Shown piece by piece: positions 20,280-22,588 of a DNA stretch of 43,940 nt. How positions within the stretch are numbered: position 1 is the first letter of the stretch; every line of letters begins with the position of its first letter. Source of the stretch: Cytophagales bacterium (GTDB lineage: Bacteria; Bacteroidota; Bacteroidia; Cytophagales; CCMP332); assembly GCA_028279065.1 (NCBI GenBank), contig JANQSY010000077.1, positions 1 to 43,940 on the forward strand, in the 5' to 3' direction. The notes below the pieces were generated by a model that saw nothing but the letters and a program-made list of their open reading frames with translations, was not told the origin of the DNA and ran no database searches. The translations under genes and the position numbers were made by a program.

Positions 20280-20465
20280 ATGGGAATCCATATGTTATAC
20301 ATTCAAAAGGCCATTGTTCTTATTCGAAAGATCGCTTGGACACTGATCTTGGCCTTTATGATTGCCTGGCATAATGTTTACAGAGAGGAGGTAAAGGCCC
20401 CAGATTTTATGGTGATCGAAATGGAAGTCGATTCCGAAATTTCCGACTCAGCACCAAAAGACTAA
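20280..20465 (+). CDS. Small predicted single-pass membrane protein, unknown
   Basis: I do not recognise this 61-residue product. It has one hydrophobic segment with basic flanks (KAIVLIRKIAWTLILAFMIAW, about residues 10-30) followed by an acidic tail rich in Glu and Asp (IEMEVDSEISDS). A second in-frame Met at residue 5 could be the true start. It lies 43 nt after the CPBP gene and 78 nt before sigZ, on the same strand. That position and topology would suit a small regulator or membrane anchor, but there is no sequence evidence for this. If it is not real, 20237-20543 is a 307-nt intergenic region in which I see no RNA gene, terminator or clear promoter. Confidence 0.45.
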   Translation: MGIHMLYIQKAIVLIRKIAWTLILAFMIAWHNVYREEVKAPDFMVIEMEVDSEISDSAPKD

Positions 20466-20543
20466 CCGTGTACCAAAAGAAGATCAAAAAAAATATTGCA
20501 CTAAATCTGCGTCCTTCATGTTTTTCCAACGTCCCCCAGGAGT

Positions 20544-21119
20544 ATGATAGCGACAATAAACACAGAATCGGTTTGGAGATCATTCTCGGATGAACTTCGT
20601 CCCTTTATTTTCCGAAGGGTGAAAGACAAAGACCTTGCTAATGATATCTTACAAGATGTATTCATTAAGGTCCATCAGAAACTCGACCACCTAAAGGAAG
20701 AGGACAAACTGGGTTCATGGGTATACTCAATTACCAGGAATACCATCTCTGACCATTTTAGAAACAGAAAAACCATCAGTCTGGAAAATGAAAAAGAGGT
20801 GATGGATGATGAGCCTCTATTGAATGGGCATAGCTTTGAAGAGTGCCTTATCCCTTTCATCAATGCCCTTCCGAATAAGTACAAGGAGGCCTTGATGCAT
20901 ACTGAGATCTATGGCATTTCTCAAAAGGAATATGCTGATGTGGCAGGAATCACCTATTCGGGAGCAAAATCACGTGTTCAAAGAGCAAGGCTTGAGCTAA
21001 AAAAGTTGTTTGTAGCCTGCTGTAACCCTAAAACCGATGTATATGGGAACGTTGTAGAAAAAGATGAAGTGGAGGGTTGCCCAATAAATGCGTCTTTTTC
21101 TTCAAAACGCAGTCAATAG
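20544..21119 (+). CDS. sigZ: ECF RNA polymerase sigma factor SigZ
   Basis: A 191-residue extracytoplasmic-function sigma factor. Region 2 is clear: LRPFIFRRVKDKDLANDILQ (about residue 18), then FIKVHQKLDHL and GSWVYSITRNTISDHFRNRK. Region 4 holds the DNA-binding helix-turn-helix, ALPNKYKEALMHTEIYGIS then AGITYSGAKSRVQRARL. The C-terminal extension is typical of SigZ: Cys159-Cys160 followed by DVYGN and then Cys179. These cysteines could bind a metal or sense redox state, which is inference. No anti-sigma gene of known type adjoins it. The next gene, 20 nt downstream, encodes a tiny cysteine-rich peptide before a shared terminator. CGTCC occurs twice upstream (20510, 20530), but no complete ECF promoter could be built from it. 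Confidence 0.92.
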   Translation: MIATINTESVWRSFSDELRPFIFRRVKDKDLANDILQDVFIKVHQKLDHLKEEDKLGSWVYSITRNTISDHFRNRKTISLENEKEVMDDEPLLNGHSFEECLIPFINALPNKYKEALMHTEIYGISQKEYADVAGITYSGAKSRVQRARLELKKLFVACCNPKTDVYGNVVEKDEVEGCPINASFSSKRSQ

Positions 21120-21139
21120 GGAAACAAAACTTAATAATC

Positions 21140-21199
21140 ATGAAAAGAAGAGATAATTGTTGCGGAGGCGGTTGCTGTGGCGGATGCTGCGGAGACTAA
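21140..21199 (+). CDS. 19-residue Cys/Gly-rich microprotein downstream of sigZ
   Basis: The complete product is MKRRDNCCGGGCCGGCCGD, with ATG at 21140 and TAA at 21197. Six of nineteen residues are cysteine in three adjacent pairs (7-8, 12-13, 16-17) separated by glycines, after a basic start and before an acidic end. Such a pattern is very unlikely in random DNA and looks designed for metal or thiol chemistry. It follows the sigZ stop by 20 nt and is followed after 9 nt by a strong terminator, so it is most simply the last gene of the sigZ transcript. There is no leader with a GG cleavage site and no radical-SAM or other maturase beside it. I cannot name a family. Possible roles are metal buffer, sigma-factor modulator or redox reporter; all are inference. 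Confidence 0.6.
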   Translation: MKRRDNCCGGGCCGGCCGD

Positions 21200-21203
21200 A
21201 AAA

Positions 21204-21239
21204 CAGAGCCCCAGGACCTAGTCTTGGGGTTTTGATTTT
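21204..21239. terminator. Strong convergent terminator between sigZ unit and DUF5723 gene
   Basis: CCCCAGGAC (21209-21217), loop CTA (21218-21220), GTCTTGGGG (21221-21229): nine pairs with one G-U wobble, extendable outward to 21204/21234 in the plus transcript with A-U and G-U pairs, then GATTTT. On the minus strand the same stem is followed 5 nt later by six T. The loop triplet is, on the minus strand, the TAG stop codon of the facing gene, so the hairpin serves both directions. Confidence 0.8.
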
Positions 21240-22588
21240 AAACTAAATGCTGCTCCAAAATATACATTTAGATAATCTCTCTCAGACTCACTAAACAAAC
21301 CTGTCCAAAGGTTGGAGGATCCAATGAAATAGCCTTTATAGTTAAAGGATATCCCAAAGCTGTTTTTCAAGCCATTTCTAATAATATATGGAGCCGTCAC
21401 TCCAAACTTATCATTATCAAACCTTGGAATGATCGTGTACTCGTAATAGTTCTTATTAGAATCAAAACTGGTGAATGATCTTAGCCAATAGTTAAACTGC
21501 ATGTTCAGGAAAAAATCCTTATAGACATTTAGATCTCCATGGAGAACCAATTGTGTTGGAAGGTTAGCCACGATATTGTCAGGTTCCTCACTAAAATCCA
21601 GATCCCTTTCCTTCAAAGTATCCACCAGGCTGGATATACCCGGACCAGAGTTCAAAAAATTGAGATTCAAAGTGTTCCTGCCAAAATCAATATCAATACT
21701 ATTCTCGGAAGGCTTGTAAGAAATACTTCCCAGATCGATCAATGAAACCCCTACATCAAAGAGATAGTCATTGGATACGCTCTCTTCATTAGACCTGAAA
21801 TAGCTGTACCGGAGTCCAATATCGCCTCCAATGCCGGTATGTTTAAACAAGTCGAATTGAAACTGATTTTCAGAAACCACCCGATCGAATGAATTATCAA
21901 AACGAAAGGAAAAACTTCCATTTAACGAAAATGAGTCTGAACCGGATCTCTGGACCTCTACCCCATTGACCTCAAAGATCCCGGAGGAATTACCCGACAA
22001 AATGCTTAATGCACCTCCTACCTGAAGCCTGTTCTTACCATCATTATATAGTTCATAGGCGACCGGAAACTTAAAATCGATCCAGCTATGGATGAAAACA
22101 GTTGCAAATTCTGCAGTGGTAGAACTGGAGTAGCTACCTGACTGCTGTTGCTTCTCCATAATACCTTGCATGAAACCTTTAAAATCAGGGTTTCTGTACC
22201 TACCCAAGGCAATGGCCCTCATTTGGGGAATGAATCCTATGGCAAATCTTTTGTTGAACTTATAGATCAATCCAGGAAACATGGTTCTTGTATAAAAGAT
22301 CGCGTCCGCTGACTCAGTGAAAGCAAGCTTTAAAAGATCTCCATTTCCAATAGAGCTTAGTGTCTCATCAGAAGGAGTAGCATCCCCTCCTATTATTAGG
22401 TTCAGGTCAGAACCAAGTACATTGAAGTTCCACTTTTGCTTAAGGTCGAGAATCCTGGCTGGTTGCATTGGAGTAGCATAGACACCAGCATTTTTGACCG
22501 AATTATAACCCTTGTAGTTTTGAGCAAGGGAAGGAGCCGAAATGAGGAGAAGAAAAAAACAAAGGATTAAAAAGACCCGAGGAAGCAT
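21218..22588 (-). CDS. DUF5723 family outer-membrane beta-barrel protein
   Basis: A 456-residue exported protein. The signal peptide is MLPRVFLILCFFLLLISAPSLAQ. The mature N-terminus NYKGYNSVKNAGVYATPMQPA and the block KLAFTESADAIFYTRTMFPG resemble DUF5723, a Bacteroidota outer-membrane family of unknown role. Alternating hydrophobic and polar strands continue to the end (for example FFLNMQFNYWLRSF and FGISFNYKGYFIGSS), and the last strand GAAFSLKSKPQD ends near the C-terminus as in barrels. No catalytic motif is apparent. The gene is divergent from the porin gene at 22641 with 52 nt between starts, so both promoters must overlap. Its stop codon lies in the loop of the shared terminator. The family call is from memory of the N-terminal pattern. 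Confidence 0.75.
   Translation of the reverse strand: MLPRVFLILCFFLLLISAPSLAQNYKGYNSVKNAGVYATPMQPARILDLKQKWNFNVLGSDLNLIIGGDATPSDETLSSIGNGDLLKLAFTESADAIFYTRTMFPGLIYKFNKRFAIGFIPQMRAIALGRYRNPDFKGFMQGIMEKQQQSGSYSSSTTAEFATVFIHSWIDFKFPVAYELYNDGKNRLQVGGALSILSGNSSGIFEVNGVEVQRSGSDSFSLNGSFSFRFDNSFDRVVSENQFQFDLFKHTGIGGDIGLRYSYFRSNEESVSNDYLFDVGVSLIDLGSISYKPSENSIDIDFGRNTLNLNFLNSGPGISSLVDTLKERDLDFSEEPDNIVANLPTQLVLHGDLNVYKDFFLNMQFNYWLRSFTSFDSNKNYYEYTIIPRFDNDKFGVTAPYIIRNGLKNSFGISFNYKGYFIGSSNLWTGLFSESERDYLNVYFGAAFSLKSKPQD

Follow-up and report, generated by a model that had tools for sequence, protein, structure and literature searches.

The window analyzed here, a stretch of 43,940 nucleotides that makes up contig C152 of the host genome G000 (3.59 Mb, 191 contigs), carries on its forward strand a sigZ gene (20544..21119, ATG start) whose 191-aa product is an ECF sigma factor with the domains Sigma70_r2 and Sigma70_r4_2. 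In a profile search with TIGR02959 this protein scores 173.0 bits (cut-off 168.65) and is both the best-scoring and the sole match above the cut-off among 17 matches in the genome, which are ECF-like; with NF007215, a second SigZ model, it reaches 188.2 bits, below the cut-off of 212. The protein has cysteines at positions 101, 159, 160 and 179, the last three of which had been pointed out in the original prediction and are confirmed in the translation. SigZ is known as an ECF factor in Bacillus, where to our knowledge it has been assigned no clear function.

Located 20 nt after the sigZ stop and on the same strand, a small open reading frame (21140..21199, ATG AAA AGA AGA GAT AAT TGT TGC ... 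GAC TAA) encodes the 19-aa cysteine-rich peptide MKRRDNCCGGGCCGGCCGD. An intrinsic terminator follows (21204..21240, forward strand), with a stem at about 21204-21234, 14 bp long in the fold, and a T-rich 3' side and tail, and it is predicted to end the peptide transcript; direct reading and folding thus agree with the earlier claim that the frame lies between the sigZ stop and a terminator. The terminator, which was seen by folding and is unlisted by a simple terminator scan, overlaps the end of a convergent gene for a DUF5723 protein. The gene order is identical in G001, a genome of another species of the same genus, with a CPBP protease gene before the sigZ-peptide pair and the DUF5723 gene after it; there, SigZ is 62% identical to the protein of the window, and a hairpin of different sequence stands in the place of the terminator. 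G002, which was sought as an empty-site comparison, has neither SigZ nor a DUF5723 homologue, and its CPBP protease is only 35% identical. Between the CPBP protease gene and sigZ, the window also contains an ORF (20280-20465) whose 61-aa translation includes a hydrophobic stretch; no counterpart was seen in the shorter spacer of G001.

Six of the 19 residues of MKRRDNCCGGGCCGGCCGD are cysteines, arranged as CC-GGG-CC-GG-CC, and the peptide is thus small and cysteine-clustered in the manner of bacterial metallothioneins, with a cysteine content above the 15-20% used as a minimum for such proteins. Among the window's 446 ATG-initiated ORFs of 12-60 aa, no other combines five or more cysteines with a cysteine content of at least 20%, which argues that it is more than a chance reading frame. 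At the equivalent place after sigZ, G001, the only other genome of the genus in the sample, encodes MNRKDECCGGGCCGGCCND. Frame-breaking third-base changes had been named beforehand as evidence against a gene; in the core CCGGGCCGGCC, comprising 11 codons, all six nucleotide differences between the two genomes are synonymous, an outcome that random placement matched in 0 of 20,000 trials. Over the whole ORF, 14 nt differ, 10 of them at third positions, and the changed codons comprise seven synonymous and four non-synonymous ones (P = 5e-5, or 1e-3 with transition bias). A search for the core with up to two mismatches in 390 genomes of the order returned only G000 and G001, in each case beside sigZ. 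These comparisons are strong evidence, though from two sequences, for selection on the peptide, which is probably translated. At E 1e-3 the 19-mer had no Pfam or NCBIfam profile match, a test limited by the very short query.

A bipartite promoter-like motif connects the peptide with its sigma factor. In a set of 113 non-identical SigZ loci, the pattern TGYRTC-N14-17-CGTC was detected downstream of sigZ at 43 and upstream of it at 39, as compared with dinucleotide-shuffle means of 0.13 and 0.09, respectively, and with 5 downstream and 1 upstream flanks on the reverse strand; elsewhere in the same loci it was met in 21 of 4356 windows. Although spacers of 14 to 17 were permitted, 81 of the 82 motif sites have 15 or 16. 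The resulting consensus is of the ECF type (tTGCGTCYTTTT / tTGCGTCtTTTTt, with TGCRTC and CGTCtAta set 15-16 nt apart), CGTC being a usual ECF -10 core, and we infer that SigZ reads this motif.

The window holds two such sites on the forward strand. Upstream of sigZ, the site at 20508..20539 combines TGCGTCCTTCATGTTTTTCCAACGTC (TGCGTC-N16-CGTC, 20508-20533) with a -10 tail and is predicted to mediate autoregulation of sigZ; it is the one exact match to TGCRTCYWTN{11,14}CGTC in the 3.59 Mb of G000. The second site (21089..21123), with TGCGTCTTTTTCTTCAAAACGCAGTCAATAG from 21089 onwards, reads TGCGTC-N16-AGTCAATAG, has the same spacing as the upstream site, overlaps the last sigZ codons and is predicted to drive the 19-aa peptide. 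Its -10 core is AGTC in place of CGTC, and the peptide might therefore depend on read-through or co-transcription from the sigZ promoter; the counterpart in G001 is a full match, TGCATCCTTTTTAATGCCCGCACGTCTATAG, which begins past the sigZ stop. After C179-P180, SigZ of the window ends in INASFSSKRSQ (21081-21119), the codons of which overlap the downstream promoter, and because SigZ of G001 stops before the promoter, this C-terminal extension looks accidental. Relaxed-motif matches in G000 other than the 21089 site were rejected, as they are without a T-run. G001 has three matches, one before sigZ, one after it and one on contig C87, the last of which lies inside an unrelated patatin-like ORF and was dismissed as a regulon member. 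A genome-wide pattern search of G002, which is without SigZ, found no exact motif, and outside the SigZ loci the motif is almost missing from these genomes. According to the scans of G000 and G001, the visible regulon in this genus consists of sigZ and the peptide.

The pairing of SigZ with tiny cysteine-rich peptides, originally predicted for this locus, recurs far beyond the genome. When short ORFs with at least 18% cysteine are counted on the 3' side, they are present in 22 of 112 SigZ 3' flanks vs 5 of 440 control flanks, which were taken from other genes at these loci. Eighteen of the 22 have an exact motif just upstream on their own strand, and a 19th is that of the window, with the relaxed form; eight of the 18 are convergent to sigZ, each with its own motif. 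The cysteine-rich ORFs of L029, L066 and L126 are not preceded by a motif and resemble chance ORFs or parts of longer ones, and those of L069 and L090, which have the motif but are hydrophobic and signal-peptide-like, count weakly. With both sides of sigZ and the relaxed motif considered, a motif-preceded tiny cysteine-rich ORF is found at 30 of the 113 loci, in ten cases before sigZ, and the same criteria reveal none adjacent at the other 83. Examples include MKDQDSNCTCNCNCNCCGNSENSCC, MENNCCGSTCCCCGTSGSGCC, MNQSCCNENCNCNCGCNCKCSCNCECCKGKCC and, from Chryseolinea serpens, MENQLDPGACCGDDCCGGLNSGCC. Since the sequences are too variable outside cysteine and Gly/Asn, no homology argument can be made between the peptide families. 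Ten related SigZ-linked peptides had no Pfam or NCBIfam match at E up to 10, where short queries again limit the test, and the codon test on the G020/G268 peptide pair, the members of which are too similar to each other for it, gave P values of 0.07-0.14. The trait is scattered across the SigZ tree and requires at least 11 changes. A peptide-first order (SigZ motif, cysteine-rich peptide such as MTYKGECTCNCDGCKTGSCTNCTCENCTCSNCNC, then sigZ) was observed at loci from several families of Bacteroidota and from a single Myxococcota bin (L016, L030, L032, L034, L035, L041, L042, L082 and L099).

In an evenly drawn sample of the class, 16 of 28 SigZ genomes have a motif-preceded peptide, which lies at the sigZ locus in 15 of them. 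In the remaining genome, G254, sigZ has no neighboring peptide, and a genome-wide motif scan led to an intergenic site on another contig, 42 nt past which a 72-aa cysteine-rich ORF was found (MENQNCGCGNQNTNC...CNCGGGRCC). This match, obtained from the motif alone, is the best test of the SigZ-peptide idea made here. Because the peptide genes have a SigZ motif of their own, and can lie on the opposite strand (eight relatives) or on another contig (G254), the peptide is most plausibly an effector under SigZ control, an output and not half of a sensor; the two-part sensing unit envisaged in the original prediction is thus unsupported.

The nature of the other genes behind the motif points to the signal that may be sensed. 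Longer proteins directly follow the motif in 54 cases, which include 25 arsenite methyltransferases (NF008823), five ArsI/CadI proteins (NF041414), five DUF2703 proteins and two ArsP_1 permeases, and arsM replaces the peptide at many SigZ loci. ArsM, ArsI and ArsP are typical of ars operons. Motif loci span Bacteroidota, Ignavibacteriota, Bacillota, Chloroflexota, Acidobacteriota and Pseudomonadota, among others. The dominance of arsenic genes among the identifiable targets points to arsenic as the signal and bears out the thiol or metal theme put forward at the outset. The host itself has an arsM gene (G000:C74:913) with no SigZ motif upstream, and SigZ is thus not the only arsenic control of G000. 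On plasmids, sigZ is accompanied by genes for a thioredoxin-family protein and a permease in Arenibacter, and has arsC and ACR3 nearby in Hymenobacter; a Priestia plasmid record has nothing arsenical beside sigZ.

A candidate sensor lies in the tail of SigZ itself, where the codons for C159-C160 (21018-21023) and C179 (21078-21080) are predicted to specify a three-thiolate metal(loid) site. Three thiolates form the usual As(III) site. The tail cysteines are conserved in 105 (C159), 100 (C160) and 99 (C179) of the 113 SigZ proteins, and among those predicted to drive arsM, arsI, ArsP or a peptide, none has fewer than three cysteines in the tail; members with exactly three include arsI- and arsM-associated ones. 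The Chryseolinea/Cyclobacteriaceae branch has lost the CC and has C...C(X)C in its place. In the AlphaFold model of SigZ from the window (mean pLDDT 85), a helix spanning residues 138-160 ends at C159-C160 and leads into a short beta element, after which C179 falls within a low-confidence tail; the model is compatible with, and no proof of, a three-thiolate site at C159/C160/C179.

Taken together, SigZ may be a stand-alone metalloid-sensing ECF sigma factor, which would become active when As(III) or another thiophilic metal(loid) binds C159, C160 and C179. The SigZ-RNA polymerase complex would then read two promoters of the form TGCRTC-N15/16-CGTCtA, of which the one before sigZ would provide positive feedback and the other would drive the CCGGGCCGGCC peptide. 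The peptide would act as a minimal metallothionein-like chelator, binding the metal(loid), thereby shielding the cell, and stopping induction by lowering the free inducer. We consider this whole circuit reasonably likely. Its readable parts, namely the promoters and their recurrence, the coding conservation of the peptide, the recurrent association of SigZ with cysteine-rich peptides, and the arsenic identity of many other targets, are seen in the sequences, and motif recognition by SigZ, As(III) as the inducer, and translation of and metal binding by the 19-aa peptide would complete it. A broader proposal, to which we give about even chances, is that a one-protein, As(III)-activated SigZ is widespread, that a dominant output in Bacteroidota is a class of gene-encoded micro-metallothioneins of ~17-90 aa, which would lie outside the family libraries and tend to be missed by gene callers, and that the whole regulon of the host species consists of sigZ and MKRRDNCCGGGCCGGCCGD.

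Several other explanations have to be weighed against this circuit. The metal might be one other than arsenic, such that within the same SigZ circuit the peptide chelates Cu, Cd, Zn or Hg, sensed by the SigZ of this lineage. Peptides rich in CXC or CC bind many soft metals, Cd and Zn elicit the response of the metal-sensing ECF factor CorE2, whose tail contains a CC (PMC9023288), and no arsenic gene with the SigZ motif was found in the window or in G001; the dominance of ArsM, ArsI and ArsP among identifiable targets across the family, together with the occurrence of arsI- and arsM-associated SigZ among those with exactly three tail cysteines, nevertheless makes this rather unlikely. It is improbable that the peptide modulates SigZ as a feedback regulator or co-sensor, either taking metal from the SigZ tail or binding to it. 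The tight linkage of sigZ and peptide in both species of the genus would suit such a role, and a SigZ-dependent chelator would in any case exert negative feedback automatically, by removing the inducer. However, the peptides vary widely in sequence and length and offer no common surface, their genes can be convergent or unlinked, and arsM takes the place of the peptide at many loci, as would be expected of outputs and not of sensor subunits.

A small RNA as the active product, with an incidental reading frame, appears very improbable, despite a transcript of ~115 nt with a strong terminator and a whole-transcript fold z-score of -4.0, because the terminator hairpin makes up much of that fold, the CCGGGCCGGCC core changes only at third positions between the species, relatives retain cysteine-rich coding potential in varied sequence, and no Rfam family exceeds the threshold. 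We give least credence of all to a RiPP precursor or a peptide signal destined for modification and export: such a role would fit the very short, Gly/Cys-rich peptide and the gene for a CPBP-family membrane protease upstream, but the scanned neighboring genes of the window encode neither a known RiPP-modifying enzyme nor a known peptide exporter, and in relatives the genes that accompany SigZ through the motif are for the most part arsenic genes.

The metalloid-sensing circuit that we favor has its closest parallels in CorE and CorE2 of Myxococcus xanthus and in OrbS, ECF factors in which a cysteine-rich C-terminal extension binds metal (PMC8999054, PMC9023288). Like these, SigZ is a stand-alone ECF factor; metal binding is proposed for its C-terminal cysteines, and its predicted targets belong to metal homeostasis. 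In contrast to CorE and CorE2, its tail is short (CC-X18-C) and has three cysteines instead of the four or five of their motifs, and the CXC of the CorE-type sigma2-sigma4 linker (PMC8999054) is absent, the only other cysteine being C101. The targets differ as well, comprising predicted arsenic genes and micropeptides for SigZ, and Cu oxidases and ATPases, Cd/Zn resistance and ornibactin genes for CorE, CorE2 and OrbS. As it lacks the CXC linker and belongs to a separate family (TIGR02959), SigZ is not classed here as CorE-like (former ECF44 / ECF238). Unlike ArsR-family sensors, the predicted SigZ sensor is an activating sigma factor with a dedicated ECF promoter.

With regard to the peptide, a parallel exists in phytochelatins, which bind As(III) and Cd(II) and are made enzymatically from glutathione; the 19-aa peptide resembles them in being a very short thiol peptide, but is gene-encoded. 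Another relevant comparison is MymT, a copper-protective metallothionein of the RicR regulon of M. tuberculosis (PMC10141476), with which it shares the features of a small cysteine-rich protein, a presumed chelating role and predicted metal-responsive control. It differs from bacterial metallothioneins in having 19 aa and six cysteines in CC pairs, and the SigZ-linked peptides resemble those proteins in make-up only.

In the open-access literature, nothing was found that links SigZ with arsenic or with such peptides, or that addresses the SigZ-peptide theme among reports on ECF factors with arsenic or metallothionein; most subscription papers are outside this coverage. The analysis assigns a promoter sequence to SigZ and predicts its signal and regulon, and it points to a recurrent class of tiny cysteine-rich proteins that gene callers tend to skip and that can be found via their promoter. 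If true, the circuit would complement ArsR with an arsenic sensor of the sigma-factor type and would add a minimal gene-encoded chelator, both of which would be useful for biosensors and arsenic biochemistry.

Taken as a whole, the SigZ family is not exclusively arsenical, since some members drive PhzF, MalY, PAP2 or PIG-L genes, and the remaining longer targets include six PAP2 proteins, two PhzF proteins, two aminotransferases and two PIG-L proteins. The two SigZ proteins that drive phzF (L095 and L120) have one tail cysteine each and belong to a single-tail-Cys subclade that by sequence also includes L028, L094, L100, L121 and L122, and which may sense another signal through the same kind of promoter. 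The motif also precedes PAP2-superfamily proteins of ~300 aa with an RGHYKQL-like motif in L011, L020, L078, L103 and L106, and lies before one further downstream in L066; in L011, L020, L078 and L106 the PAP2 gene is divergent from a short cysteine-rich peptide. In L061 and L065, a SigZ-like motif with CGTG stands before a PIG-L/BshB-like deacetylase gene (MKIMYIFPHPDDESF), a type of target possibly linked to low-molecular-weight thiol synthesis. Finally, for the SigZ relatives of L033, L039, L040 and L200, a variant element (in L033 and L200, TGTGTCTTTT...CAGACTACATAG) precedes a gene for a small, thioredoxin-like SSCCA protein, which on the Arenibacter plasmid is followed by a permease.
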